Positions 29,690 to 64,000 of a stretch of DNA of 64,000 bases are shown here, piece by piece. Position 1 is the first letter of the stretch. Every line of letters begins with the position of its first letter. Position numbers and translations under genes: made by a program. Below the pieces are notes generated by a model. The model had not been told where the DNA came from. It did no database searches and saw only the letters and a program-made list of their open reading frames with translations. The stretch covers positions 1 to 64,000 of the forward strand of contig JAYMGJ010000008.1 in the NCBI GenBank assembly GCA_037178675.1, in the 5' to 3' direction. The stretch is from Scleroderma bovista. Taxonomy: Eukaryota; Basidiomycota; Agaricomycetes; Boletales; Sclerodermataceae.

Positions 29690-31610
29690 GAATCACCCAC
29701 GAACTCCAACTCACGCGCAGCCATTACCGGCGATACCATCCTCACTGTCCAATGCCCGCTTCTCTGCAGGCCTGCCTTACACATGGCTCGGCACTTCCCA
29801 CCTACTTGCCATCAATCCCTGCAAGGTGCTTTCCGCTGTCAACAATGCCAGTGCGCGAGAATATGAAGACTGTTGTTATAGAGACACGGGTCTCTCACCT
29901 GCTAGTGCACATGTGTTGCAGCCCCGTGTATCCGAGCTCACTACTCAGATGTATTTGCTAATGTGGCGACAAAGGGAGTCGCAGGCTTTGGTCATGCGGT
30001 GAGTGGTACACCTTGTCCTTGCCGTACCATATTTGCTAACAGATGAGGTGGGACATACAGTGGGGTTACAGGCTCAAGCAAAACATACAACGCACGTCTC
30101 GTTGATTAACTTCCTCTTTTCTCATCCCATACCAAAAGGGAGCACAGTGTCAAATCAAATCGCTCCACACCCTTCTCGACTCATTTGGGGACTCCAAGAC
30201 TCTTCTCACCGCGAATATATCAGGCGATGGGTGCTGGATCGAGCTGTACTTCAACGAGCGTGAGCGGAAGGGAGGTGGGGTACCAAGAGTGCAAAAATGC
30301 TCGCGTTTGCGCTCGACAAATCTGGCCTTACTCGGCTCATTTACGAAGAGCGCACATTCCATATCTTTTATCAGTTGAGTTGAAATCAAGCACTCCACAT
30401 GCTTCTAGACTCATTTGGAGACTCCAAGACTCTTCTTAGCGCGAATGCATCATGCCATGGACACTGGCTTGAGCTGCACTTCAACGAGCGTGGGTGGAAG
30501 GGAGGTCGGGGGAGGGGTAATGAGAGTGCAAAAGTGCTTGCATTTGCGCTCTACAGATCTGGACTTACTCGGCTCATCCATGAGGAGCGTACATTCCAAA
30601 TCTTTTATCAGTTGAGTTGAAACAAAGCGCTCTACACACTTCTCGACTCATTTGGGAACTTTTCTCAGCACGAATGCATCACACCACGGCCACTTGCTCG
30701 AGCTGCACTTCAACGAGCATGGGCGGCAGGTGGGGGGTATCAAGAGTGCAAAAAACGCCTGCATTTGCGCCACCTGACAAGTCCCACCTTACTTGGCTCA
30801 CCCATGAGGAGCGCACATTCCACATCTTTTATCAGTTGAGTCAAAACAAAGCGTTCCACACACTTCTCGACTCATTTGGGAACTCCAAGACTCCTCTCAG
30901 CACGAATACATCATGCCATGGCCACTGGCTCGAGCGGCACTTCAACGAGCATGGGCGGCAGGTGGGGGGGTATCAAGAGTGCAAAAAATGCCTGCGTTTG
31001 CGCCGCTCGACAAGTCCTGCCTTACTTGGCTCACCCATGAGGAGCGCACATTCCACATCTTTTATCAGTTGAGTCAAAACAAAGCGTTCCACACACTTCT
31101 CGACTCATTTGGGAACTCCAAGACTCCTCTCAGCACAAATGCATCATGCCATGGCCACTGGCTCGAGCGGCACTTCAACGAGCATGGGCGGCAGGTGGGG
31201 GGGGTATCAAGAGTGCAAAAAATGCCTGCATTTGCGCCGCTCGACAAGTCCCACCTTACTTGGCTCACCCATGAGGAGCGCACATTCCACATCTTTTATC
31301 AGTTGAGTCAAAACAAAGTGCTCCACACACTTCCCGACTCATTTAGGAACTTTAAGACTCCTCTCAGCATGAATGCATCACGCCATGGCTCCTGGCTCGA
31401 TCTGCGGTTCAACGAGCATAGGCGGAAGGTGAGGGGGAGGGGGGATATCAAGAGTGCAAAAGTGCCTGCATTTGCGCCGCTCAACAAGTCCTGCCTTACT
31501 GGGTTCACCCATGAGGAGCGCACATTCCATATCTTTTATCAGTTTTTAACTGGTGCTGCACCACAGGAGCGTGACCACTTTACGCCTGAGGATTGGACGT
31601 GACTGCATGT
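29690..31610 (+). pseudogene. Dead chitin synthase with myosin motor-like domain (class V/VII type)
   Basis: These synthases carry an N-terminal myosin-like motor. From about 29,740 one frame reads LPYTWLGTSHLLAINPCKVL, ASAREYEDCCYRDTGL and MYLLMWRQRESQALVMR. After an intron GVTGSSKT follows, a P-loop with Ser where GSGKT is normal. Then comes the motor exon (LLDSFGNSKT, HFNERG, HEERTFHIFYQL), present six times in tandem. Only the last copy continues into the expected FLTGAAPQERDHFTPEDWT, where homology stops. The rest of the motor and the whole synthase domain are missing and there are stops between copies, so it cannot make an enzyme. True myosins were excluded because the post-FHIFYQ segment matches chitin synthases. 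Confidence 0.75.
30155..31549 (+). repeat. Six tandem copies of a ~235-bp motor exon
   Basis: Copies start at about 30155, 30381, 30618, 30842, 31076 and 31310. The shared CTTTTATCAGTT mark falls at 30365, 30602, 30826, 31059, 31293 and 31533, giving spacings of 224-240 bp. Each copy covers the same stretch from LHTLLDSFG to FHIFYQL. Copies 3 to 5 are the most alike; copies 1 and 6 are more diverged, as if the array grew from the middle. Confidence 0.9.
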
Positions 31611-32632: not shown

Positions 32633-34974
32633 TGTGCGCCTAAGTGAGGGAAGAGGTCAGAACAACCAACAACCAACACCAAATGACAGCAATATGCGAG
32701 TGGTGGTCTTCCTTTGCGTTTCTGGTATTTAATCTCCTCAGGGGGATGTGCTGCACGCCTTCAGGCAGGATGCAGGAGGGAAGGGAAGAGCTTCTGATGG
32801 GGATGGAATGCGACTTGGGATGGTATTGACTCCTCTTCAGCCTACCACAGTGGTTAGGAAGAGTCCTGGGATTGAAAAGCGATGATAGATTGATGATAGG
32901 GGTGATACAGCAGTGATGGAGCAGAGGGGAAGCAAGGGGACAGTTCCTGCTTCAAGAATGCGATGGACAGTGATGGGATGGAGTGGACAGAGATGCTAGA
33001 CTGTGCTTGAGCCTAGAGAAATGATCAGATACAAGATATATCTGATAAACAGCAATATAGGAGCTTTAGGCCAGCACTGAGTGACCTACAAGTCCAAAGA
33101 CAGAGATAGAGCTTATAGACAGTGAGGGAGAGTGAATGTGGTCGCTTTATTGAGGGGGAAGCAGACACTTCCTTGCAGCCTTTGGCTGCTGGTTTATATA
33201 CAGGAGGGGCTGTGGCCCTGTAAGCACAAATGACTAAGTGCTTGGTAAGAGATTGGTAAGAAATTGGTAAGCGATTGATAAGCAGTGTAATCAGGCTGAG
33301 TCATCGATGGGGAGAGCCTGAACAAGCTGCTGAGCCAAGGGAAAGAGCAAAAACATAGGTAAAAAGAGGTGTATAACCAAGAATATGGAAAAATCATTGC
33401 ATGGGGCCCAAAAGAGAGAGGGGGAAAGCATGGGATGAGTAGATCGAAGCTAAATGAGCATATGCGATGACATAATGCATATGAATCATAGGGGCATGAG
33501 TCATGAATTGATAAGCAGCATGATAAGCATGATTTGAAGGATGATTGGTAAGTGATTGGTAAGGGGAGTAATGGGGATTAGTAATGCCAAGAGGGGATGA
33601 ATAATGCGCAGCAGAGTGAGTCAGAGTGAGCCAGAGTGACTCTGTGTGACTCAGAAAGAAGGGAAGCACAACCTATGATTTATTGAACTTTAGATCTGGA
33701 GATGAGCTTCTGAAGCAGTGCCACTGATGGGAGTGGCTGGGGGATAATAAAAGAATTGATCCGACCAGAAGAGCAGTGTCAGGGGGCCTGGAATGACAAG
33801 TAGAGTCACAGCTGGTCACAGAGTGTCACAAATCCCTTGGATTGAGCTTCTGTAGAGCAAAAACGCGAAATTTGGTGCTCCCGAAGTGCAGTCTTCCCTT
33901 GAGCAGTAAGGGGAAGGTTCTGTACTCTATTAGGGCTCCTAAGAAGGGTTCTAGAGCACTGTTTCATTCATGTTTGTTGCGGGATAGCAGGGAAGAGAAT
34001 CGCAAGTAGCGGATTCGACGTGTCCAGGGAAGCGAGATGAATGATAGAGGGAGATGGATGTGACAGGACTCTGGGATGAAAGGACCATATGCAGAGGACT
34101 CAGGAGACACAGAGACGACCAGGTATGAATTTTCAAGTCTAACGATAGACTTGAGACGACCGAAGTATGTGCGCGACGCAGGACTGACAAGGAGAATGCG
34201 CTGACCGAGAACAAGAGGGACTGAGGGAGCAGGCTGGGAAGATATGTACCAGACAGTACACAGGAGCTCATGGAGAGGCTGTCCCAAGAGCAGGACATAG
34301 TTGAGGTCTGCTGCAATAGCGGAGAAACGTTCCAGAGAAAATGTGGACTCCATAGTGAGTGATGAAGCGGGTGTCTGGATTGCGGGTGGAATATCTCCGT
34401 GGGAAATGAACAGATTTACGTCGGAACTTGACAGGCAGATAGACCACGGTCTAGGCTCCATGATGGTATAGTCACATGATTGATAGCTTCAAAAATGGCG
34501 GAGCTATTCAAAATATCGGAATGCCGGCACTGGGCGCCTAAATTTGACATTTGGGCGCTAAAAATGATTCTTCCTTTTCTCCTTTGTTTCTCTATTGTTT
34601 CTTCTGCTTCTTTGGTTGTTCTGGTATGGGAGTTGGACTGCAGTAGGTTCCATTCCTCTCTCATACTGAAATGATCATCAATCCTTGGATTCTTCTGCTT
34701 CTTGGCGGTTCTTGTGTGAGGGATGACTGTCCATGTTGGCATTCATCTCTCGCATCAGGATAGTCATTCTTGTGCGATAGATGGCTATGACAAGCTTGTA
34801 TTCATCCTTCGCATAAGGATAGTCATGACTTTGCATGATATGGATAGCAAGGGCTGTCTGTATCCCTCAAGTCGGGGCAATCTTTCAACAGATCTTGGGT
34901 GTGCGTTCTTCGCATTAGTTTCATCGGCTAACTTTCTCCATGTCCACAGTACCAAACACGTTTGGTGCGTGACA
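32633..34974 (-). mobile_element. Solo LTR, copy 2, with CCGG target duplication
   Basis: It is nearly identical to the LTR at 1944-4286 and lies in the same orientation. It is flanked by CCGG at 32629-32632 and again at 34975-34978. No gag, pol or second LTR accompanies it, so it is a solo LTR left by recombination between the two ends of a full element. The TATA box (33193-33200), AATAAA (33146-33151) and the 165-codon internal frame (33964-34461) are all kept. Confidence 0.9.
33964..34461 (-). CDS. Second copy of the 165-codon LTR open frame
   Basis: Same length and frame as 3275-3772, with about five visible amino-acid changes (for example Pro to Leu and Pro to His). No domain recognised and no known counterpart. 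Confidence 0.3.
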   Translation of the reverse strand: MEPRPWSICLSSSDVNLFISHGDIPPAIQTPASSLTMESTFSLERFSAIAADLNYVLLLGQPLHELLCTVWYISSQPAPSVPLVLGQRILLVSPASRTYFGRLKSIVRLENSYLVVSVSPESSAYGPFIPESCHIHLPLSFISLPWTRRIRYLRFSSLLSRNKHE

Positions 34975-49343: not shown

Positions 49344-51470
49344 TCATACATCGGTGATATCGATGTCGACCAATTGGTCCCAGTAATCAGGAGATTCTCC
49401 CCGAGTACTGTCTAGCTCAGCAAGAAGCGATCGCTTCCAAGCTTGTGACACGTCGAACAGGTTGCGTGTACGCTTCCTGCTCACGAGCCACCGTTTATCA
49501 CATAACCCAGCGCGTTTGACGTCGAAGATGGTTTCCTCGACCGAGCGTCCGGCGGACTCACCGTCGGTTAGCCTACCATAGTGAGTAACAACCCAGTCGC
49601 AGGGCCGCTCAGACGGCACCACATTCCGCCACCGTGCGCTAGCCTGAACTTGGCCGAGACTAGCACACTCCCCTGAAGAGGAGGGCCCATCAGTGGTACC
49701 ATTGGATCCGGAGGACCCGCCGGCTCCCTGCCAGTCACCCTGAGGGGGAGCAGGAGGCTGTTGCTTAGCAACGGAAACAGGATACTCGTCTATAACGAAC
49801 GTCCGAGCTTCCGGAGTGAACCCGATAGACCTTCCTAAGGGAATACCGGGCCGGAACTCATGTCGGGACCTCTCTGCGGTGTCTTCCGTACACCACATGT
49901 GGTCATAGATGCCGTTTAAGTACGTCATCCATTGGGATGTGATTGTCTTGCTGAGTTCATCGACATTGAACGCGTACCATGCCGGATTAAACTCGGTCTT
50001 AAGGACCAGAACGGGCCGTGCGGGTTCCGGCTCGGAGAGCCGTTGTTCCCACCGTTCTGCCAGGTGATCCTTAGTCCAAGTCAAAACCAACTTTTCTGGA
50101 TACCCACGTGCCATATAGAGACCCTTAAGGTCTTTAATGGCCGAGACATACTCTTCAACAGAGGACGAGAGCGTGGCCAGGCGTGACATCTCACCGATGT
50201 AAGTTCCCCGTTTTACATCTTTAGGGTGGTGAGATACCCATGGTATGCGTTCTTTGTGGTTTAGTTTCTTCTGATAGGGTCGGTGCCCGATCTGACCGGT
50301 AACCGGATCGAGGTACACCAACATGTCCAGGAATGGAACGTTATATTCCGAAACTTCCCACAGTAGTCGAACACGTTCTTTGCCAGGGTCATCGTATCGC
50401 AAGATCGAGGCCACCTTAAGTGTGTTTTCCGCACTATCGGCATATACAATTCCTAGGACGTCATCGATATATCTACCGATGAATGCCCACCCTAAGTCCT
50501 TAAGCGATTGCTCGCTGGAGAATAGGTGTTCCTCAAAGTAGGCACTCCATAGATTAGCGATGTCAGGCGATGGAGCCTGTCCCATTGCTAAGCCCTGAGT
50601 TTGGAGCCAGTAGCGTCCTTGGAATTCGACTACATTATTTAGATTGGCTATGAGTAAACACCGGCGGAATAATTCTATTTGCCGCTCGTTAAGCGTGTTT
50701 GCATAGTGTGCCTTGAATAGTAACATTACTATGTCAAGTGCTTCTTCCAAGGGGATACTCGGATAGAAGGCGACGACATCGCCGCTCACTAACCAGGCCT
50801 TTTTAGACCGGTCAAGCCGTAATGTTGAAAACTTTTGTGCAAGGTGCTTGGTCCCATGTAACACAAATTTGCAGCGCTCTACGAGCAGCTTCAACATTTT
50901 GGAAACATACTTAGCAACAGGGGCCTGGGCGCTGGAGTGACAGGGAATTATGGGCCGGTGTTTAACCGGCTTCTTATGTATTTTTGGAATCACATAGAAC
51001 CGAGGAATACTCGGCAAACCCTCAGACCCTTCGGCCGGACATTTGTTTACCAGAAATTTAACAAGTTGCTCGCTTGCGCCTTCGGAGTCTAGCCCTTCGG
51101 CGATAGCACGAACTTCTCGTACAGTTTCCATGAGAATATCATGGCATCGGTCAGATGAGATGGACTCATACTGTGATGCATCGTTCAAGATAGACTCGAC
51201 GCCCTCTATGAACCATTGCTTCGTGATTATAGCTACACTGAGGTTCTTATCGGTAATCGTCACAATGAGCTTATTTGCCCGTAGTGAGTCCTGGACGGCC
51301 TGCCAATCGATGAGACTAGAAGCATAATCTCTGTGGGTTACGATCGTGGGTACGACTATACAGCCTGTGGTGGAATTATAATTACAAACTGTAAACAATC
51401 TTTTGGGAAATGTAATGATGGGAGGAGGTAGATAGACTGATTGGGAGGTCCCAGTCCAAGTTTCAGACAA
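49344..51470 (-). CDS. Penelope-like element reverse transcriptase, endonuclease-lacking (Coprina-like)
   Basis: It copies element RNA into DNA at chromosome ends or breaks. The open frame of 708 codons starts with TTG and has no good ATG, while the frame stays open only a few codons further, so the 5' end is probably truncated. RT motifs: TDKNLSVAI (residues 73-81), IPKIHKKP (161-168) with HRPI, motif A SGDVVAFYPSIP with Asp 231, motif B QGLAMGQAPSPDIANLW (292-308), motif C YIDDVLGI (334-341). The C-terminal ~200 residues are Gly/Ser/Pro-rich then basic, with no GIY-YIG nuclease. Lack of the nuclease, CCTAAC repeats after the stop codon and a basidiomycete host all fit the telomere-associated Coprina group. 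Confidence 0.85.
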   Translation of the reverse strand: MSETWTGTSQSVYLPPPIITFPKRLFTVCNYNSTTGCIVVPTIVTHRDYASSLIDWQAVQDSLRANKLIVTITDKNLSVAIITKQWFIEGVESILNDASQYESISSDRCHDILMETVREVRAIAEGLDSEGASEQLVKFLVNKCPAEGSEGLPSIPRFYVIPKIHKKPVKHRPIIPCHSSAQAPVAKYVSKMLKLLVERCKFVLHGTKHLAQKFSTLRLDRSKKAWLVSGDVVAFYPSIPLEEALDIVMLLFKAHYANTLNERQIELFRRCLLIANLNNVVEFQGRYWLQTQGLAMGQAPSPDIANLWSAYFEEHLFSSEQSLKDLGWAFIGRYIDDVLGIVYADSAENTLKVASILRYDDPGKERVRLLWEVSEYNVPFLDMLVYLDPVTGQIGHRPYQKKLNHKERIPWVSHHPKDVKRGTYIGEMSRLATLSSSVEEYVSAIKDLKGLYMARGYPEKLVLTWTKDHLAERWEQRLSEPEPARPVLVLKTEFNPAWYAFNVDELSKTITSQWMTYLNGIYDHMWCTEDTAERSRHEFRPGIPLGRSIGFTPEARTFVIDEYPVSVAKQQPPAPPQGDWQGAGGSSGSNGTTDGPSSSGECASLGQVQASARWRNVVPSERPCDWVVTHYGRLTDGESAGRSVEETIFDVKRAGLCDKRWLVSRKRTRNLFDVSQAWKRSLLAELDSTRGESPDYWDQLVDIDITDV

Positions 51471-51589
51471 AACGGCGGTCGGAATAATATTCTACAGGTG
51501 ATGCAAGCATGCTTGGGTACCGGAAACACATCTTATTAGGAAATATTCTGCAAGGCTCAGGACCATTCCCATAATCTTCAGAGACCTCA

Positions 51590-52060
51590 AAAACCCCAAT
51601 AACAACCATTTGAACAATCTGTAATAGCTTCCTGAATTTATTAGATACAGTAATGTAAGGTATGAGGAGTAGGGTGTGTGTGTTGTCGCAAAAAAATACA
51701 GGTACATCACAAATGTTCTTTCCACAGTCCTGTGATGATATATATATGGGGTAGACATGTTTCAGGTATCAGTGACATGCTCCTGAATTTTCTGAGACCA
51801 ATATAAGATGAGAAGAGTCACACTGGGTATATTCATAGGAACACATGTTGGGGTGTAGGAATCAACTCCCATCATCTTTCTAGTCATTTATAACATCCAT
51901 ATTACCACTGTCAATATGCTGAAAAGACTGTCTGAATTTATTTGATATCATGCTATCTGATATAAGGAGAAGGGTATGTATGTTGCTGAAAAGAATACAG
52001 AAACACTCACAGTGTCCTTCACATGGTCCTATGATGATATATAGTTGGGGTAGATGGGTG
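51590..52060. repeat. Three diverged tandem units of ~150 bp
   Basis: The mark CTGAATTT recurs at about 51632, 51783 and 51932, with similar neighbouring sequence (for example TGATGATATATA followed by GGGGTAGA in units 1 and 3). The period equals that of the array at 53.5 kb, but I could not align the unit to it. No gene lies in 51471-52140. Confidence 0.55.
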
Positions 52061-52139
52061 TGTTGGTAGGAAAAAGTTGTTGTGGTCAAAAGTTGTATGC
52101 TACTATAAACTAAGTTCATAATCGACTAAAGCAGGTGAA

Positions 52140-53365
52140 ATCGTGCTGTGGAGTGATTTGTGCATGTGGCTGATCCAGACAACTATTCTTAAAGATGGAT
52201 TCATTACCATGGCCTTTGAATCAAAGGAGGGAAAACAATTTACTCTCACCATGCACACACTCCTGAGCAGACAAAGTAAGTGGTGGATTTTGCTGGGTGT
52301 CCAAAAGCCTTTGTCCATTTTCGATTGTCGAAGACAGGAGATTTCAGTCTTTAATGAAGACAGGTGGCCCTTCATACCAAATACCTTCCCTTCATGATGG
52401 ACTGAGTTATTCCATGTCTATCTTATCTTCACACACACTCAAACCTGTGTCACTAAGATGTTACGAGTTAGTTTAGATACAAACCAATATGAGTTTGACT
52501 AATTATTTACCAGGAATATGATAGTGGGCTGAATTTCACTACTGATGCTTGGATGACAGCAAACCATCATGCACCCATTGCATCCTGTGTCCATCTGGAG
52601 CACAATGGCACAACACTGATGATGCCATCAGACATTATTCAAGTACCTATATTAGTGGGTGACTAACCTGATGTACCTTGTGAGCGCTGACATGATATCA
52701 GTCCCACACTGGTCTCGAAATGGAAACAGTGTTTGCAAGTATTCTGGAAGGTCTTGGATTAGCAGAAAAGGTTTTACTCGATTCAAACTTATCTGCTAAT
52801 TGGATACTTGAGAGTACTCCTAGATATTTGGTGTGATGTGTGACAATGCAATGAATAACAATGTCATGATCCAAGAGCTCTGTACACTCGAAAATAAGTT
52901 TGCTGACTCTCCAAGCCATACATGCTGTTTGTTCATATTGTGGGCCTCATTGCCAAGTCACTGATCTGCAAATTCAATGGAAAGAATGCAACCATCAAAG
53001 AAGAAACTGAACTGGCTAGATTGACAAAAGAGTTGTCTTAGGAAGAAAGCATGGTTCAGATCGAGGATGATGGTGATGATGAAGCTATGCAGGAGATCGA
53101 CAACAATGAGAGATGAATGGAATAGAATGGATGATCTGACAGAGGTAGCAAGCATCGAGGTTGAAACGTTGATCCATGGCCTACAAGATCAGAACCATTG
53201 ATCAATTGTTGCATGGTGGTCAGTTTGATATCACAAGATGTTTCAACATAATGAAATTATACCCTTTACTTGCTGGAATATGCGGCCTCTCGACATACAT
53301 TGGTTTATCCGCACCCAAATACGTCAAGCCTACTTGCCCAGTGACAAATGCTTTATATACCTGAA
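52140..53365 (+). pseudogene. Decayed hAT-family transposase
   Basis: Pieces in all three frames spell a hAT transposase in the right order: LWSDLCMWLIQTTILKDG with FALTMHTLLS-like, then GLNFTTDAWMTANHHAPIAS, HTGLEMETVFASILEGLG, and CDNAMNNNVMIQEL with HTCCLFILW. Stops and frame changes break it throughout. TTDAW and CDNAMNN correspond to the first and second catalytic Asp regions. Later pieces around 53,180-53,360 (RTIDQLLHGGQFDITRC) are not placed. It ends just before the left satellite array. Confidence 0.65.
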
Positions 53366-53504
53366 AGCATTCCATCTTCTGTTCCCTATCAAATGGTGAG
53401 AGACGTGTTGATACAACACTTGGCTTGAATGGTTGGAAAGTATTCAAGATGTCGACCTGTGCATTTAATCTATATGACATACATCCACTTGATGTTGAGT
53501 AGTC

Positions 53505-55165
53505 ACTGTAATAATTTTATGGTTGTGTTCTGCATGTACCAGCCTTGGTATGATTGTACCAATGAGGTATAATGTTGCAAGCAAGTGCGAAGAAATGGGA
53601 GGATGGTGTATAATTATTCGGGGTTTGACTATAGGGGAAGGACTCTGTAATAATTGATGGACGTATTCTGAAGCTTGTAAACACTTTTGATAGCCCTTGT
53701 ACTATTTTAACAACTAGGTATAATATATCGAAAAAGTGCAAACAAGTGGGAAGATGGTGTACAAGTGTTGGGTGGTTGGCTATGTGGGTAGACCTCTGTA
53801 ATAATTCAATGGTTGCGTTCTGCAGCTTGTAAATACTTTTAATACCATTCTTACTATTGTAACGGCTATTTAGGATGTTGCGAACAAGTGCGAACAAATG
53901 GGAAGATGGCATACAAGTGTTGGGGGTGACGATAGGGGCAGATCTCTGTAATATTTCGATGAGCACGTTCTCAGCTTGTACACACCTGTACCAGTACTTG
54001 TACCATGGTCGGGAATATGTGGAATGTTGCTAATGGGTGCGAACAAATGGAAAGGTGGTGCACAAGTGTTAGTGGTTGACCATACAGGTTGACTTCTGTG
54101 ATAATTTAATGGTGGTGTTCCACAGCTTGTAAACACTTGTTGCAGCATTTGTACTATTGTTAGAACTAGGTAAAATGTTTCAAACAAGTGCGAACAAATG
54201 AGAAGGTGGAGGACAAGCATTAGACGGTTGCCTATAGTGACAGACCTCTTGAATGATTGACGTGCATGTTCCACAGTTTGTAAACACATGGAAAAGCATT
54301 GGTACCATTGTAGGGACTAGGTGGAACATTGCGAACAAGTGCGAACAAATGGGACGATGGTATACAAGTGTTAGGGGGTTGACTATAGGGCAGGCCTCTC
54401 TAATCATTTGAAGGGCATATTCTGCAGCTTGCAAAAACCTGTAGCATCACCTGGATGATCCTATAGACTGGGTGGAATGTTGCGAACAAGTGCGAACGAA
54501 TAGGAAGATGGTTTACAAGTATTAGGGGGTTGACTGTTCAATGGGCATGTCCTGCAACTTGTAAAAACATATAGCAGCACCTGGACGATCTTATGGACTG
54601 GGTGGAAGTTGTAAACAAGTGCAAACAAATAGAAAGATGGTGTACAAGTGTTAGGGGGTTGGCAATAGGGGCAGGCATCTCTAATCATTCGATTGGCATG
54701 TTCTGCAGCTTGTAAAAACCTATAGCAGCTCCTGGATGATCATATGGACTAGATGGAATGTTGTGAACGAGTGCGAACAAATAGGAAGATGGTGTACAAG
54801 TGTTAAGGGGTTGACTATAGGGGAAAAACCTCTGTGATGATTTGATGGTCGTGTTATGCAGCTTGTACACACTTGTTACAGCCATTCCACTATCGGTAGA
54901 ACCAGGCTCCATGTTGGAAACGAGTACGAACAAATGGGAAGATGGTGTACAAGTGTTGGGGGTGACTATAGGCAAATCTCTGTAATAAGTCGATGGTCAG
55001 ATTCTTCAGCTTGTAAACACATGTAGCAGCCTTTGTACTATTTTAAACACCAGAAGGAACATTGCGAACAAGTTCCAATATAGTGTACCAGTGTTGGGGG
55101 TTGCATACAGCAGTAGACCCCTATTGGATCTTTAAAAGACCCAGGGTACACATCTGCATCCATTA
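53505..55165. repeat. Left tandem array, about 11 units of ~149 bp
   Basis: The core TGCGAACAAGTGCGAACAAA-like sequence recurs near 53576, 53727, 53875, 54027, 54176, 54328, 54477, 54610, 54760, 54912 and 55060. Each unit also has GCTTGTAAACACTTG and GTGTACAAGTGTTGGGGG. The units are diverged but never lose register. The array stops about 35 bases short of the stop codon of the minus-strand giant gene. Confidence 0.9.
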
Positions 55166-55197
55166 GATGCGGGACAATACTAATAATAGGTCATTCC

Positions 55198-58100
55198 TCA
55201 TTCCTCATCCTCCTCCCTCCCCCTTTCATCATCCCCCTCCTCATGTGATTCATCATCCCCTTCTTTCTCTACCACTCTATTCTTTTTTGGAGGCTGACGG
55301 GTATTCCTTGCCTTTGCTGACTTTCGCTGTCTTGCCTGTTGTAGACTCTTCTTCTCCAATTGCAACACTTTGTTGGTAAGTATATCATCATACCCTGCAT
55401 GCCGCATGAGGTCCATGTGCAGCATATTATTTGTCTTCACAACTCGACAGGCTTTCTTCCTCTTCTTGCACTGATCCTTCTCCATTGAAATTCCCTCGAT
55501 CTTGTAGAACTTAGGGTTTGTCACCAGCACTATCCTGTCTTCTTCTGCTCTCCAGGTCTTTCCAGGAGTCTTTGCACTGCCTTTCATGGAGTCTGGCAAG
55601 GTCTGAAGAAGGGAGAACATCTTCCCAAGACGATCCGTGACCTCCAAGCATTCCCCCGCAGTCCTTCTCTCCATCACCTGGTGGTACTCCCAGATGTATC
55701 CTGGCTTTTTCCAGAGGGAACTCCAAGGAGATCTCCGTGCAGGCTGTTCTAGAGTTGCCTCTGGGAAGAAAATATCCATCCTTTCTGCAAAGCTGAGCTG
55801 GCGACGACCTGCTCCTGCGCTCCCTGGTATCTCTGCATTGCAGGCCTTGAATTTACAGGCTCGGATGGTCTTATAAACCTGGTTAAGTGTCCAACTCTCC
55901 ATAGCATCCTGCAAGGAAGCGGGTTCTGGTCTGCTCCTTGGGTCTGTGAGCCAAGAATCCTGTATCTGAATCCAGAACTGGCAGGTGAATTGCACAAATA
56001 GCTTTCCCACCACTGGTTCAAGACAGAAAAACTGTTCGGACCATCTCCATGGCCGCATGATTAACCAAGGCTGCATTTGAATGGTGGTCTTCAATCTTGA
56101 CCAAGTTGGCATGTTTCCGATTGGAAACTCTTCTGCACAATCCTCTAGAGGAATCCTTGGCCAGGTCGGCCTTCCATTCCTCTTTGTCAATTTTCCCTGC
56201 ATTACCCTCAGCACCTCCAGGTCATCGTATTGCTGCACCGCTTTGAGATGAGGCGTCCTCTTCAGGTCTAGGTCCAGCAGGAAGAACATCCCAAACCTTC
56301 CACATACCCTTGAGAACTGGAGAAGAGTCATGGATTCTCTGACATGATAGTTGAGAATTATTGGGGTGGAGGAGGTGCATCGAATCATGTGACAGATAAT
56401 GCCTGTCAGAATTCCCAGGTTGGGTGGTTCCAGTTCCTTGAGTCTCATCTGAGTCATCTGGAGTGCCCTGACACGTCTGGCCAGAAATTCAAACCAGACC
56501 TCGGATCGTATCCACAGGATAGGATCTGAAGCTATAAACATTTCGACCTGTAGGAGCGTTCAAGATGACAGTCAAAGATATGCCTATGAAATCTCACCCT
56601 GCAAGGTAACTCGATCATCAGTACTTCTGCAGCCATCCCACTCATTCTATATTCATCTCGAACTCCATATGACCTTTTCTTAGCCTGTCCAGAATAGATT
56701 TTGATGGCCTGCATGCATTGTTCCATATAGTCACCATTCAGGGCATATGCATCCTTGTCCATCGCAAAGGTGGGCAAGTTATCATTTGGTCGGACTGCCT
56801 CATAGGCAAGATTGTAGGCACTCCTGAATGCGATGTGAGTTTGTCTCCCTCTCTCCTGGGACATCTCTGCTTGAATACCACCATAACGCCCAAGAGTACA
56901 TGTATGGTGTAGGTTCCCCTGCAGATAACCACCAGCACCAAAGGACGCTTCCAGAGAATCCAGTCGCCACAATCCTACCAGCTTTTCGTCACATGTAGGA
57001 TGGATCCCAATGCCCAAGTCGACCAACAGTTCGCCATTGTTTCTGTCAGTCATGTATGGCCAATCCAGGGCAGGTATCCCTTCAATAAGAGTCTCTATGG
57101 CAGATTTATCTCCTCGGAATAAACAGCTTTTTGCCCACAGCTTGATTCCCTTGCATTCCAGGACGAAAAAAGGAGCCATAGTTTGCATACCGGAGAGAAT
57201 CATCCATGATGATCTCCTCCATGGTGGACTGGATCTTCTTCAATGTATGCATAGAAAAGGGGACTGCTTTGGGACGGCCAGGCTTTCTTTTTCCACCCTT
57301 TCGTGCCTTGAACCTCACTTCATCCAGAGTGAGGGATACATATGGGGCGCTCCCAACGTCTGCATGTTCACAAATGGCAGGAAGCAAAATATTCTCCCAA
57401 AAAAAGTCTAGGATCTCCTTTGGTATGCGGCTGGCATGCCTGTGGGTTATCTCATCCCTGTGTATCATCCTGGGGAAGCAGATATAGACATGCATGTTTC
57501 CGGAAGCGTTGCTCAAGGTACCAAAGGTGGTATGAGGGACTCCAGACAGTGGAAATGACATGGTCAGCCACTCAGTACGGCCCCCCAAAGCACAGGCATC
57601 TTGCTCGGATTGGGGTACAAGGATGTCAACATACACATGGTTGTTCTTGTGCATGGGGGCCTTCTCCTCCAGAATAGGACCAAGGTAGATGGCAAGTGGA
57701 GTGGAGAACTGAAGAGAACGAGTGACCCATACCAGACTGTCAATGTCCACTGTCACAAGCAAGTCCTCGGAAGCCACTTTGATGCCGTCCAGTTCCATAT
57801 TGAGGCAGATGTGATGTCCATCCCTATGTCGCCCACAAGTGAAGGTATTCAATAGGCTGTTAGAATTTCTGTCCCCACTCAGTTGTATCATCTGAGATGC
57901 ACTCAGTATGGTTACATCTTCCACCATGACTCTTGGAATGGGAAATGAATGTGGAAACGGAAACTGTCCCCGAGCAAGAGAGTATTCACCTGTCAAGACT
58001 TCTAAGAAATTGGCACAGTTCAGATCATGTTGTCACTCACCAGTAACATGGTCATCAATCTGATGAGAGGAGTCATAGTTGTCAGGAATTCCAACAGGGA

Positions 58101-59993
58101 GGACATGATCTGCAGGTCTGACTGGTGGATCCAGATAGAACATCTGGCTGAAGGAGCTCAGGAGGCGATAGCCATGGTCTCGAAATGATGTCCATATTCC
58201 AGGTCGATAGTAGGGCTCCTCCACAAACTCATGGGGATTGCGATCCTGATGCAAGCTTTCCAAGATGGGCCCACCTTCATACTCATCATAGGTGTTATCA
58301 AAGGGTTTCCATCTACGGCCCCGATAGGCAGGAAGGTGCAATGCAGGGGTGGGTCGTGGAAAGCGAAAAATAGATTCACCAGGCCAGCCCTTGATATGCT
58401 TTTGTCTTCTTGGGTCTGAATTCTCTTGTACATCGATTCCATGCACTGCCCGAGGAGGAAGATGGTCTCTGGCTCTGGCCCTGTGTACATAAGGGTAGCG
58501 CCTCAGCAGGTTCCTGAGATGCTGAGCCTTGGTATGTAAAGGAGACTGGTCCTCTTCTATATCACTATCCCTTGGGAGATCATCATCAGATGGTGGAAGA
58601 GAGGGTGGTCGACTTTGAGAGCGGATCCTCTGACAGACAAGACATTGTGCACTGACAACATTAAGTTCACGGATGATGGAGGCATGTACCTCTCCAAAGG
58701 CTTGGTTCTCGACTTCAGAAATGGATTCTGCGCTGACACCCATTGTGTCGTCCCACTCTGACCATATGTTTCCAGGGGGGTGATCGGTGTTAGAAAGGTA
58801 GCAATAGTCTTCCCAGCTCCTTCTACAGGCCTCCTTCACCATGGCAAACATTCGGAGTCGCAGGCGATGACCGCATGGAATCGAAGGAATGTGAACAGTA
58901 TTTCCATGTCCACCATAGAGGCCACTGTTCATGAGAGACTCCATGACAAAGGATGCAATTGGCCCACAGTCTGTGCCATTCTGCATCCAATTCCAGGCAT
59001 GTACAGTGACTCGATCTGGGTCCATTGCATCGTACCCATGAAGGGCTGCTATGCGTGTCCAGTAGAAAGGGCCATTCCACCCCTGCCAGTCGTCATGTGG
59101 ACTACCATAGCTTTGATGAGGTATATCTGGGACACCAGAAATACGCCTTCCAAAAACATAGGCAGAGTGTGATTCATATTCAAAGACTGCCACGAAGAAA
59201 TGACTGTTGCGCATGACCACAAAAGCGACAGGAACAGAGGAATCAGCAGGAAGAGTGTCAAAGAGATGTCGCTGGCGAAACAGGTTTATCTCGCCTGCTT
59301 CAGGCAAAGCATGGGAATTTGAAGGAACAGACGGGATAGCAGAGAAGAGGTCGACATAACGAACATGACTCATGCCTTGTACAGCGTACCATTGTGACAG
59401 AAGGTGGAGGTTGAGGACAGTGGCATCGATCCAGGTCTCATGTGTGAGGGTATGCAGGTTCTGATATGCCATCGCCCACACAGTTGGTCTAGCCATGGAG
59501 CACACTATGCAAATAAGAAAATGAACAGCCAGCAAGGAGAAGTAATCAGGAACTTACTGATAATGTGGTGAACTGAAGGTACAGGTGACTCCTGATGCAA
59601 GGATGGAACACGTGGAGGCGATTGGCAGGGAATTGTTTGAGCACGCTCATCGACAAAGTCATCTTTGGAGTCATCAGAGTCTCCATGAGGGGAGTGGTGT
59701 TTCCCATCAGAACCATCCAAGTGGTCTATCATAGCCTGGCACTTTATATATATAGCATCCAGTTCATGCTCGTCAAATGATGACCCAGCATCATCTAGGG
59801 CCTGAGAACGAAGACCATCCATTATCAAATCATAGGATGGTGATAGAGGAGAACGGCGGGTCGAGTCAGAATCATGATCAGAGGAATGTGAAAGGTTTTT
59901 CATGAGATTGTCAAATGCACGTAGTATTTCATTTTCACTGGTAGAAGATAAGCTGGCTCTTTGTGCTTTGTGAGATCGGATCTGTGGTGCCAT
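55198..59993 (-). CDS. ~1,590-residue protein with Ulp1-like cysteine protease domain
   Basis: Five exons start at ATG 59993 (MAPQIRSHKAQRASLSS), with GT-AG introns near 59.54, 58.0 and 56.55 kb. An acidic, Ser/Asp-rich N-terminus leads to a Ulp1/C48-like domain: catalytic His in RNSHFFVAVFEYE and Cys in MQNGTDCGPIASFVMES. Next come a basic GGKRKPGRPK motif, then VLECKGIKLWAKS, LVDLGIGIHP, SFGAGGYLQGNLHHT and RSAYNLAYEAVRPNDN, conserved-looking but unassigned. The tail is Lys-rich then strongly acidic. One frame break occurs at a run of six A's (57166-57171), where a single extra base separates NYGSFF from VLECKG. I recall the family as multi-copy in Agaricomycetes without a function. SUMO-protease-like activity is only inferred. 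Confidence 0.6.
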
Positions 59994-60184
59994 AACAGCA
60001 GGGTATGTTAGAATCGGAAGGAAACATTGTTTGCCGACCATGACCAGATAATATTAGGTAAAATGGATGGGGACCATGCACTACCCGAGCTCTCACAGCA
60101 TTTAGCCGATGCTGAACTTGAAAATTAACACACCATCTCCCTTTCCTGTCCATCCTTTACTTCGTCCCACATCCAACTCTGAGA
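59994..60184. promoter_or_regulatory. Shared divergent promoter of the giant protein and BAH-PHD genes
   Basis: Only 191 bases separate the two start codons, so both genes must be driven from this spacer. No clear TATA box on either strand. Confidence 0.45.
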
Positions 60185-61417
60185 ATGTCAAAACCATCAA
60201 AAGCAAGATTTTATACATTTCCTTCCTCTAAAGTCCTAAAGGGTAAGTATGTTAATGGAAGAAATGTAGACATGTGCGCTTATCCGATAAGTGAACAACC
60301 TCATGGAGGCAGATGACGACATCTTGGATGGAAGAAAGGAAATTCCGGAAAAAATGTCACATCTATTCTATCGGGGGGACAGGTAAGAGACTATATGAAT
60401 AATAGGGTAATGTTATAACATGTTCCTGCATCAGTGCCCTTATTTTTGGGATAGATAATGCACGGTGGTATGGGAAGATCCATGATATCAGGGTTCAAGA
60501 ACTGAAGAAAACTGTGGTGAGAGTTTCTAGATTATGTTCATGGGGTATGGTGTTGACAAAAATGCAGAAGGCATGGGTAGCTGTACAGTGGTACTACCGA
60601 AAGGAGGATATAACCCAACAGAAGTGAGTCGACTAAGCATCTAATGCATGCTTGTTTCAGGATTCTGAGTTTCTTGTAGGATCAAAAAGTATGTAGGAAG
60701 GTGTGAGCTGGTGTTATCAGACCACATCGATATTGTCGACCCAACCACCATCTCATGTTGGTGATTTTTGATATTCTCCATGCATCCATGATTCTGACAG
60801 AGATATTAGCACCAGTAGAGATCACCCATTTCACAGAAGGGGATGCATATGGTCCCTTGATAGGGCCAGATGACCTGTTCACACGATGGTCAATGAAAAT
60901 AGATAGGGAGCAGAGATTTGAGGTATGCCTGGCTGTATTGATGGGTTCAAATATTTCTATGACATATACAATAATAATGGTTCATTAGGAATCCATCCAC
61001 AGATGCATTATATGCGAAGAACCCTACAACCCTGATATACACCAGCAACGCTATTGCCGTAGCTGCAACCAGTGGTTCCACATCGACTGTTTGCAGAGCC
61101 TCCCCAGAGGAAGTAAGAGGCCTCTGGACCTCATGAAGGAATCGATCACAAGGAGTGAAATCTCCATGGAAGATATCTATCAAAAGACTCTGTGCATTCC
61201 CATATGTAGAGGGATGGAAAATGGTATTGTGGGAAATGGAAGGGTCATCTTGAATATGTGGTTGGAGGTTGAGAAAGCAGAGGAACAGAGGAAAAAAGAC
61301 ATAAGTGTGGTTTTAAAGGGTCATCTAACATCAGATGTGTTGCAATCGGCAACCCAGCCACATGTGTATTATCATTGTCCTCTCTGCATTGGAAATGGCC
61401 GGGAGTGCTACTTGTAA
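60185..61417 (+). CDS. BAH-PHD chromatin-reader-like protein
   Basis: ATG 60185 (MSKPSKARFYTFPSSK) opens a short first exon, followed by about six more. Spliced, they give a BAH domain: ALIFGIDNARWYGKIHDIR, AWVAVQWYYRKEDIT, GRCELVLSDHIDIVDPTTIS, VEITHFTEGDAYGPL. A PHD-like finger follows: CIICEEPYNPD, RYCRSCNQWFHIDCLQSL, and a late HCPLCIG. BAH-PHD pairs read histone tails in fungi and plants. A similar BAH plus PYNPD-finger architecture is frequent in mushrooms. Its place between inverted arrays suggests it helps a mobile element recognise or manage chromatin, which is inference. It ends with TAA at 61417. Exon ends near 60,360-60,420 are approximate. Confidence 0.7.
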
Positions 61418-61449
61418 TTAGGATAGACTCACCATTCACTCCATCTCAT

Positions 61450-62790
61450 TCAGAATTGTTATTATTTGGATGTGTCTAATGTGTGTTAACGTAAAATACA
61501 TTCAAATATGGCCCTGCCACGGTAGTCTCCACTCCATAATGAACACTTTGTTGGCGTGTATTCACAATATTTCACACATTATAAATGGGAATAGAAATGC
61601 TTGTGCAAGTATAAAGGCCTGTGAAAGTGTGTACAAGGTACGGAATAAGACTACACATGTGCAATAAGAGCCTAGCCTGGTAGCCACCCACACAACATCG
61701 TACACTTTGTTCGCACATGGTAGCAATATCCTACGTCATTTCTACACACATATGAAGGTCCTTACAAGTGTATATAAGGTGCAGAATAGGACCAAACATA
61801 TCCAACAGGGGCCTACCCTGGGAGTCACCCACACAACATTGTGCACTTTGTTCGCACGTGTTCGCATTATCCTGGATTGTTTCGGTTCACATATAAAAGC
61901 ATTTCAAAGTGTTTACAAGCTACAGAATGAGACTATACATGTCCGATAAGAACCTACCCTGGTAGCCACCCACACAACATCGTACAGTTTGTTCGCACGT
62001 GGTAGCACTATTTTACGCCATTTCCACACACATATAAAGGCGCATACAAGTGTGCACAAGATTCGGAATAAGACCAAACGTGTCCAACAGGGGCCCACCC
62101 TGAGAGTCACCCACACAACATTGTGCACTTTGTTCGCAACTTCCTGAGCCATTTGGATACACACATGAAAGCATGTCCAACTGTGTACAAGGTACGGAAT
62201 GTGAGCAAACAATGCCAATAACAGCCTAGCCTGGTAACTACCCACAAGACATCATACATTTTGTTCGCACGTGTTCGCATTATCCGTTGCCATTTGGATA
62301 TATATATAAAAGCATGTTCAACTGTGTACAAGGTGCAGAATGAGATCACACGTGTCCAATAAGAACCTACCCTGGTAGCCACCCACACAACATCGTACAC
62401 TTTGTTCGCATGTGGTAGCCCTATTCTACATCATTTCTACACACATATCAAGGCTCATGAAAGTGTGCACATTGTTCAGAAAGGACAGAACATGTCCAAC
62501 AGGGGCCTACCCTGAGAGTCACCCATACAACATTGTGCACTTTGTTCGCACTTGTTCGCAACATCCTGAGTCCTTTAGGTACAAATATTAAAGCATGTCA
62601 AACTGTGTACAAGGTACGGAATGACATCACACATGACCAATAAGAGCCTAGCCTGGTGGCCACCCACACAACATCGTACACTTTGTCCGCACGTTGTAGC
62701 AATATCTTGCATCGTTCAGGAATACATATACAATCCTTGCAATTTTACATGAGTTGGAGAATAAGACTACACATTTGAAACAGGGGCCTA
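61450..62790. repeat. Right tandem array, about 9 units of ~141 bp
   Basis: The mark CACTTTGTTCGCAC recurs at about 61547, 61706, 61847, 61988, 62129, 62259, 62401, 62541 and 62682. Units alternate between two types (GTGTTCGCA and GTGGTAGCA after the mark), a higher-order period near 282 bp. Reverse-complemented, the unit matches the left array at 53.5-55.2 kb. Starts about 30 bases after the BAH-PHD stop codon. Confidence 0.9.
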
Positions 62791-63160
62791 CCAGGCAGTA
62801 GAAAAATGATTGTGTTTGCCTGTCTGCAACTGTAGCACGCCACAAGAATATGGCATGATGCTATGTATCCTTCAAGCCACATGCCTTTGCAAGAATCACA
62901 AACCCCTTTTTTGCATTTATATCCACATTCTGACCGTGTGCCCCATCCAATCTCCGCAAATAGGCTCCCAATGATGACACATCATGTGCAACAGTATTCT
63001 ATAATTTATCTTGAATATCATAGACAGATAATTTCATGGTAGACGCACAAATGTGTTCCGATTGGTTTTGAGTTGTGAGAGTACATTTAAGACCTCTGAG
63101 GGTTGTGTCCGGTGCAGGTCCTTCAACCGTGAGAAAAATCGGGTGACCTAATGTGGACCC
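62791..63160. other. No recognisable gene
   Basis: The spacer between the right array and the AT-hook gene. If the element has a terminal inverted repeat on this side it should be here, but I could not identify one. Confidence 0.4.
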
Positions 63161-63979
63161 TCAGCATGAAATGAACACCTGAAACATAGAAATTCGTGCC
63201 TGTACATCCATCCCATCATCCCCATTCTTGCACCCTTTCGCCAAATATTTGGTAGTCTCTGTGAGGCGTGTTAGCATGGATACTTCATCTTGACTGGGTG
63301 AAGGTTGAGTAGGCTTGGATGGTGCTTCGATACTCCTGGATGGGCCTGCCGCCAGTCGGACTGGGGTTGGAGACACCTCACGCATCTTTGATGGCGGGGG
63401 GCGTGCGACTACTTTGCGTGGACTAACAGTTACTTCCACCACATCATAATCATGTTTGGCCACTTCCCCGTGAGCAGCTGAAGAGGCCTGGCTCCGTAGT
63501 ATACGGGTGTTGATCACCTCCTGTGTCACCTTCCTTTTCACCTTGCGTTTGCTTCCTGCAGGACGGCCCCTAGATCGCTTTGTCTTGATAGGGGCATCCT
63601 GTGGCATGTCGGTGGCCTCTCTCGTAGTATCATTCATTTGAATATCACCCCCAAAGCCAGTCCATTCAGAAAATCTGTACTCCTCTTCTTCCATGTGTCG
63701 GCTATCCTCCAATGCACGCTCTGAGGATGGTGCAACATTTGGTTGAGTATCATAAGGTTCGGGGGGAGAGTCGAATGGGTTACTCGGCAGTGGAGCATTG
63801 TCGCATATCATCTCTTCATCACCATGAGACATGCCAATTGGGGAGGGCGGTGGAAAGCTATGAGACACATGGACCGCCGTAGTTGAACCACCTGGTGTCA
63901 TACCATCTCCATCATCCCCTCCAACATATTGTTCATGTGGGGATGTTTCTATTTTTCCTGATGGAATGGAGACATACAT
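63161..63979 (-). CDS. AT-hook protein (at window edge)
   Basis: An open frame of 272 codons runs from ATG 63979 to a stop at 63161. The middle carries KTKRSRGRPAGSKRKVKRK, an AT-hook (RGRP core) that binds the minor groove of AT-rich DNA. The rest is disordered: a Gly/Asp-rich start (GGDDGDGMTPGG), Pro/Ser-rich stretches, and a C-terminal predicted helix (MLTRLTETTKYLAKGCKNG). More exons may lie beyond the window. It could be a DNA-binding partner of the neighbouring mobile unit or a separate gene. Confidence 0.55.
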   Translation of the reverse strand: MYVSIPSGKIETSPHEQYVGGDDGDGMTPGGSTTAVHVSHSFPPPSPIGMSHGDEEMICDNAPLPSNPFDSPPEPYDTQPNVAPSSERALEDSRHMEEEEYRFSEWTGFGGDIQMNDTTREATDMPQDAPIKTKRSRGRPAGSKRKVKRKVTQEVINTRILRSQASSAAHGEVAKHDYDVVEVTVSPRKVVARPPPSKMREVSPTPVRLAAGPSRSIEAPSKPTQPSPSQDEVSMLTRLTETTKYLAKGCKNGDDGMDVQARISMFQVFISC

Positions 63980-64000
63980 TCAAATGGCATATTATATAGT

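Follow-up and report, generated by a model that had tools for sequence, protein, structure and literature searches.

The 64,000-nucleotide window analyzed here (positions 1 to 64,000 on the forward strand of contig JAYMGJ010000008.1, assembly GCA_037178675.1, below C8) comes from the mushroom Scleroderma bovista. It contains two divergent genes enclosed by two arrays of tandem repeats that face each other across them. Gene A encodes a giant protein with a predicted Ulp1/SENP-like domain, gene B encodes a putative BAH-PHD protein, and a third gene, gene C, lies outside the right array. The initial annotation had described a two-gene cassette flanked by two arrays. That arrangement stands, with corrected dimensions: the stretch between the arrays is 6.5 kb rather than 6.2 kb, and the left unit is about 151 bp. 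These features are read below as the inner part of a large mobile element that begins to the left of the arrays and is distributed as follows.

51356-51358, + strand: left terminus of the element; CT at 51356-51357 belongs to the target, and the element proper starts at 51358 (ATACAGCCTGTGGTGGAATTATAATTACAAACTG...)
51358-53505, + strand: A+T-rich left segment; the frame listing shows no recognisable open gene
53506-55101, + strand: left array of eleven ~151-bp units; the + strand holds core TGCGAACANGTGCGAACAAA (8 sites at ≤3 mismatches)
59993-55198, - strand: gene A; exons 59993-59558, 59504-58041, 58001-56598, 56547-55198
59994-60184, no strand: divergent A-B intergenic region of 191 bp, presumed shared promoter
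60185-61417, + strand: gene B, putative BAH-PHD, 318 amino acids (aa); exons 60185-60242, 60292-60382, 60435-60623, 60680-60756, 60810-60922, 60989-61417
61603-62792, - strand: right array of eight ~141-bp units; the - strand holds the core (5 sites at ≤3 mismatches)
63155-64000, - strand: gene C, 3' part; the gene reaches ~65430 in C8, past the window

Facing arrays and the genes they enclose

Tandem Repeats Finder (TRF) reported a period of 151 at 53565-54535 and 54537-54823, with an overlapping period-130 row at 54414-54666, and a period of 141 at 61625-62694. Self-BLAST widened the array limits to 53506-55101 and 61603-62792. Anchored on the core, the left units (n = 11) are spaced 129-153 bp apart, the last being weak with 13 mismatches, and the right units (n = 8) are spaced 131-141 bp apart. 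The arrays start 97 bp beyond the gene A stop and 186 bp beyond the gene B stop. The two arrays are related in inverted orientation. Self-BLAST aligned an exact 27 bp common to both (53872-53898 against reversed 62541-62567, E 8e-7) and gave 68% identity over 173 positions between the inverted left and right arrays. The unit consensuses align with a score of 38 when inverted and 18 when direct, and the best of 1000 dinucleotide shuffles scored 31. These data confirm that the units align after reverse complementation.

The core is 20 bp long and is built from a TGCGAACA box repeated directly at a 10-bp interval. The search of the window for TGCGAACANGTGCGAACAAA at ≤3 mismatches gave 13 matches, eight on the + strand that are all in the left array and five on the - strand that are all in the right array; the window held none outside the two arrays. 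The number expected by chance was 0.02, and 0 of 100 shuffles reached 13. The whole 51.8-Mb genome has 156 core sites at ≤1 mismatch, whereas a reversed control pattern had 0. Of these sites, 100 were listed, all exact, on 20 contigs.

The exons of genes A and B were traced by hand and bear out the divergent Ulp1-like and BAH-PHD pair between the arrays. Gene A consists of the N-terminal domain followed by a long conserved C-terminal part. In the window copy, exon 3 contains a short homopolymer indel that shifts the frame; the copy on C314 is open across 1551 codons. The N-terminal domain matched the protease fold through a low-confidence predicted model. An alignment of 12 sequences shows that the His is invariant and that the Gln and Cys of a Gln-x(4)-Cys motif are present in all except P0011, which lacks the stretch that holds them. 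The assignment of the gene A N terminus to the Ulp1/SENP-like clan CE fold is thus supported, but indirectly, by a predicted model. None of the 17 gene A homologues matched any Pfam family at E ≤ 0.5, and gene A is therefore named Ulp1-like by fold and is not placed in peptidase family C48. The predicted models for the remainder of the protein were too poor to read. A catalytic transposase domain was not found; Pfam was blank for gene A, and distant relatives could escape it.

The gene B domains scored below the Pfam cut-offs, BAH with E 4.3e-6 and 27.1 bits (cut-off 30.8) and PHD with E 6.2e-4 and 20.2 bits (cut-off 24). The homologue P0018 again has BAH and PHD, likewise below cut-off. Gene C has a conserved MSDYYW N-terminal domain and an AT-hook (RGRPAGS) that was called by eye; its exon joins are guesses. 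Pfam gave no transposase match in 10 further proteins that included gene B.

The left end and extent of the element

The left ends of the copies coincide sharply at 51356-51358, some 2.15 kb to the left of the left array, and GC drops there from 0.516 in the flank to 0.399 in the element. A pattern for this end occurs at 52 places in the genome at ≤3 mismatches compared to 15 for a control pattern, and 30 of the places were cut out as loci. Twenty-four were analyzed; L039, L042, and L046 were dropped as second starts at counted sites, and L051-L053 were dropped as weak. The 24 loci reduce to 21 distinct flanks, and all 21 sites read W-Y-T: the base at -1 is T in 12 and A in 9, and the next base is C in 12 and T in 9. 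Empty-site homologues of the flank were recovered for seven of the 21. Five run straight through with the same W-Y-T (L024, L026, L040, L041, L045), and the junction is unclear in the other two (L034, L047). Because the five empty-site homologues carry the same W-Y-T, Y and T are taken as target letters and the element begins ATACAGCC; the left end may be written ATACAGCC or YTATACAGCC. The mobility of the element is well supported.

A gene A match lies downstream at seven of the 21 sites (C8 twice, C314, C36, C465, C444, and C617), one of the two C8 sites being a fragment at a contig end. The 14 sites without gene A range from fragments of <50 bp to a left end with an array (C452, C8:188376), and many copies match just the first part of the left segment. 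At C8:175626-175670, the end of one element lies 26 bp inside a second copy of that end, and this site is common to C8, C36, and C480. The gene A protease exon matches nine places on seven contigs, and the PHD exon of gene B has four matches in the genome. A single-copy, syntenic cassette, raised at the outset as a possible outcome, is contradicted in this genome by the protease-exon matches and the 21 distinct left-end sites.

The window copy is inserted into a repeat with a 715-aa open reading frame (ORF) at 49344-51491 (- strand), which matches reverse transcriptase weakly (RVT_1, E 2.3e-4, under the cut-off) and looks Penelope-like by eye. The element is also inserted into other copies of this repeat (C836, C444). 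The left segment at 52.1-53.3 kb was considered as a decayed hAT transposase from its resemblance by eye; Pfam, negative for a transposase on five pieces, did not support this.

Aligning copies to find the ends, as first proposed, yielded the left end, but neither a right end nor a terminal inverted repeat. A facing inverted copy of the left end was absent at ≤2 mismatches from every contig. One facing set appeared at 3 mismatches (C221), the level at which the control also matches (15 versus 52), and no close inverted copy was convincing in the stretches scanned. Homology among copies extends beyond both arrays, which rules out the arrays as termini, and the element continues to the right of the window past gene C.

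The right end was not found in the stretches examined. A candidate at 65476 was ruled out because the first copy of a 1.27-kb direct repeat of gene C stops there (64213-65476, with the second copy at 80875-82144). This repeat brackets a block of about 15.4 kb (C8:65476-80875) that has no counterpart in the C617 stretch compared and contains three more core arrays at 70.8-72.6, 78.6-79.2, and 79.4-80.6 kb. The same block has a JmjC-like ORF by eye (69.6-70.0 kb) and an ORF that matches ATP-grasp weakly (77.4-78.0 kb, RimK E 0.0037). Right ends near 85.7 or 87.3 kb are unsupported because C617 and C108 are still alike past both. A kinase-like gene at C8:84.0-86.7 kb (FunK1-like by eye) is about 97% common to C617 and C108 and is possibly cargo. 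In the compact relatives C422, C560, and C248, homology reaches the end of every stretch queried. The empty-site partners gave no right flank in the sequence examined, and the following 160 bp of the interrupted target repeat were not found rightwards in C8 up to 92 kb. C8 and C314 are near-identical to the right of ~53 kb. To the left they are 2-4% different, with 57 differences between 51356 and 53000, and their flanks differ. An assembly join or recombination inside the element near 53 kb must therefore be allowed for.

Two tandem repeats elsewhere in the window were also recorded. Six tandem copies of a 233-bp unit at 30149-31544 are unrelated to the arrays, and the same short tandem repeat pair occurs twice with the same spacing (2553-2966 and 33242-33655), as a duplicated segment or a repeat family.

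Relatives in the genome and in other Boletales

Some relatives of the element are without the genes. In C248 and C560, the left end is the same and forward and inverted cores are present, but neither gene A nor gene B has a match. C422 has a truncated left end and retains a relic of the gene A 3' end between its arrays; a ~256-bp dispersed repeat with many genome-wide copies lies inside this compact relative (C422:5531-5787). Of the 20 contigs with listed core sites, 13 lack a gene A match, and at least these three of the 13 are related to the same element. Gene-less copies that keep the sites needed by a trans-acting protein would have just this non-autonomous look. Eight others (C12, C181, C193, C321, C348, C367, C516, C538) have core clusters, mostly with 160-bp spacing, and no gene A match; in the listed places the cores have one orientation per contig, and C12 has an AGC variant.

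Homologues of genes A, B, and C were found annotated as hypothetical proteins. Six of the 10 gene C homologues match a gene A homologue in species and contig size, and the other four do not. The pairs are Tylopilus felleus V8E55_001296 (A) and _001298 (C), two in Pisolithus tinctorius (4023805/4023802 and 4364396/4364399), and one in Pisolithus sp. B1 (1067853/1067849), along with pairs in P. orientalis and P. albus. In Pisolithus sp. B1, one of the six gene B homologues is on an equal-sized contig too. As a proxy, equal-sized contigs were taken as one contig and close locus tags as neighbors. The linkage of genes A and C in other genera is thus supported, but indirectly, and because of this pairing gene C probably belongs to the unit in spite of its place outside the right array.

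Nature of the element

These data suggest that the stretch is the inner part of a large multi-copy DNA transposon family of Boletales with genes A, B, and C, a reading to which we assign a probability of roughly 0.6. The initial proposal of a large transposon holds for a mobile, multi-copy element with inverted iterated arrays, a putative protease and a putative chromatin reader; it needs revision in that the arrays are internal and the unit is larger than 53505-62790. On our best reading the family is undescribed, its set of parts not being matched to a known transposon family, and no description of the gene and array combination was found in the open-licence literature.

CACTA/EnSpm elements (Spm/En, Tam1, soybean Tgmt*) have iterated border motifs, many as inverted pairs, with a TnpA-type binder, and their defective derivatives are mobile if the cis sites are kept (PMC2613891). 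The likeness is a large DNA transposon with iterated, inverted motifs on both sides. In contrast, the arrays here are 1.2-1.6 kb with 140-150-bp units and lie ~2 kb from the left end, the left terminus is ATACAGCC and not CACTA, and no tnp2-like protein was recognised. The 5'-CACTA, CATCA, or TGT terminus of CACTA/EnSpm and Plavaka (CMCT) is absent from the left end, and the 2-5 bp CMCT target duplication can be compared to W-Y-T at the left junction alone. Ginger1 DNA transposons encode an Ulp1 domain, joined in one family by a PHD finger, as C-terminal parts of a Gypsy-integrase-like transposase (PMC2836005). Here, the Ulp1-like domain is near the N terminus of a ~1551-aa protein, the PHD is with BAH in a separate gene, and Pfam found no integrase in the 17 gene A homologues. 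Ulp1 domains are also found in Mutator-like elements, and the protease was suggested to aid transposition (PMC2836005). Those with Ulp1 (Kaonashi) resemble this element as DNA transposons carrying an Ulp1-like protease. They have a MURA-type transposase and long terminal inverted repeats; Pfam recognised no MURA-type transposase in the gene A homologues, and the scanned stretches have no close inverted left-end copy. KDZ models are included in Pfam, and no KDZ-type transposase matched the gene A family. The KDZ and Plavaka elements of mushrooms are basidiomycete DNA transposons with a TET/JBP epigenetic enzyme, whereas the cargo here is Ulp1-like and BAH-PHD, TET/JBP was not seen, and the left terminus differs from the published termini of Kyakuja and Plavaka (PMC12730594). 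Starships are likewise large, cargo-bearing, and fungal, but they are described from Pezizomycotina and are classed by a tyrosine recombinase; none of the Starship/Crypton type was found among the ORFs scanned, the right side being incomplete.

We infer that an element protein binds the two arrays, which would serve it as iterated sites in inverted orientation. Most likely, the product of gene A or gene C would bind the cores cooperatively; the opposed arrays and the paired box about one helical turn apart suggest cooperative binding and pairing of the two sides. The bound protein would bring the sides together and/or regulate transcription of the element itself, in the way that TnpA acts on the subterminal repeats of Spm/En (PMC2613891). 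At the element, the gene A protease domain may remove SUMO or a similar modifier from factors with which the host silences or repairs DNA, and the BAH-PHD protein may tether complexes to silent chromatin or shield the element from it. It is a tentative extension that the ~1551-residue Ulp1-fused enzyme is itself the transposase of a new superfamily-level lineage of large eukaryotic DNA transposons in Boletales, with BAH-PHD and AT-hook partners and with long inverted arrays of a paired 10-bp box that replace terminal inverted repeats as the recognised sites.

The arrays could instead be transcription or chromatin elements of the A-B pair (terminators, enhancers, boundaries, or silencing nucleation sites) that are merely carried along. 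This idea is consistent with the arrays adjoining the two genes at their 3' ends and keeping a distance of 2.15 kb from the left terminus, and with the 191-bp intergenic region common to the pair. We consider it unlikely, as relatives without genes A and B keep forward and inverted cores, a feature easier to reconcile with cis sites that act in trans than with promoters of genes that are not there. Spread of genes A-C as a host cluster by segmental duplication and ectopic recombination among repeats could account for the mosaic copies and for the likeness of C8, C314, C617, and C108 up to ~87 kb, including the kinase-like gene. It does not account for an exact common left end in 21 unrelated contexts with matching empty sites, or for the several paralogues per species in Pisolithus, and we give it little credence. 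There is a similarly small chance of rolling-circle or one-ended, Helitron-like mobilization, with a fixed left end, a variable right side, and captured genes. The missing facing left end and the many copies confined to the first part of the left segment are what it predicts, but the target is W-Y-T and not A|T, and no Rep/helicase match was found in the ORFs scanned (9 + 10, not all ORFs).

The initial annotation had also asked if the arrays occur genome-wide without the two genes, and this is partly so. The 13 of 20 listed contigs with cores and no gene A match, and the left end with an array and no gene A at C452 and C8:188376, would suit a separate satellite-bearing element in or beside which the A-B genes inserted by chance. 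That origin is improbable given that six of the seven gene A contigs, the seventh being cut off, all run from left end through left array to gene A, and that C422 retains arrays with a gene A relic between them. A retrotransposon with a fixed left end and shortened copies is rejected, as the genes lie on both strands and the scanned ORFs of the unit contain no reverse transcriptase.

If the transposon reading is correct, SUMO-protease-like domains and histone readers encoded by an element would be direct tools against host silencing. Three genes and a 20-bp DNA site of defined sequence would then allow tests of how large mushroom transposons evade chromatin silencing, and the data point to a mobile set of genes conserved among Boletales genomes.

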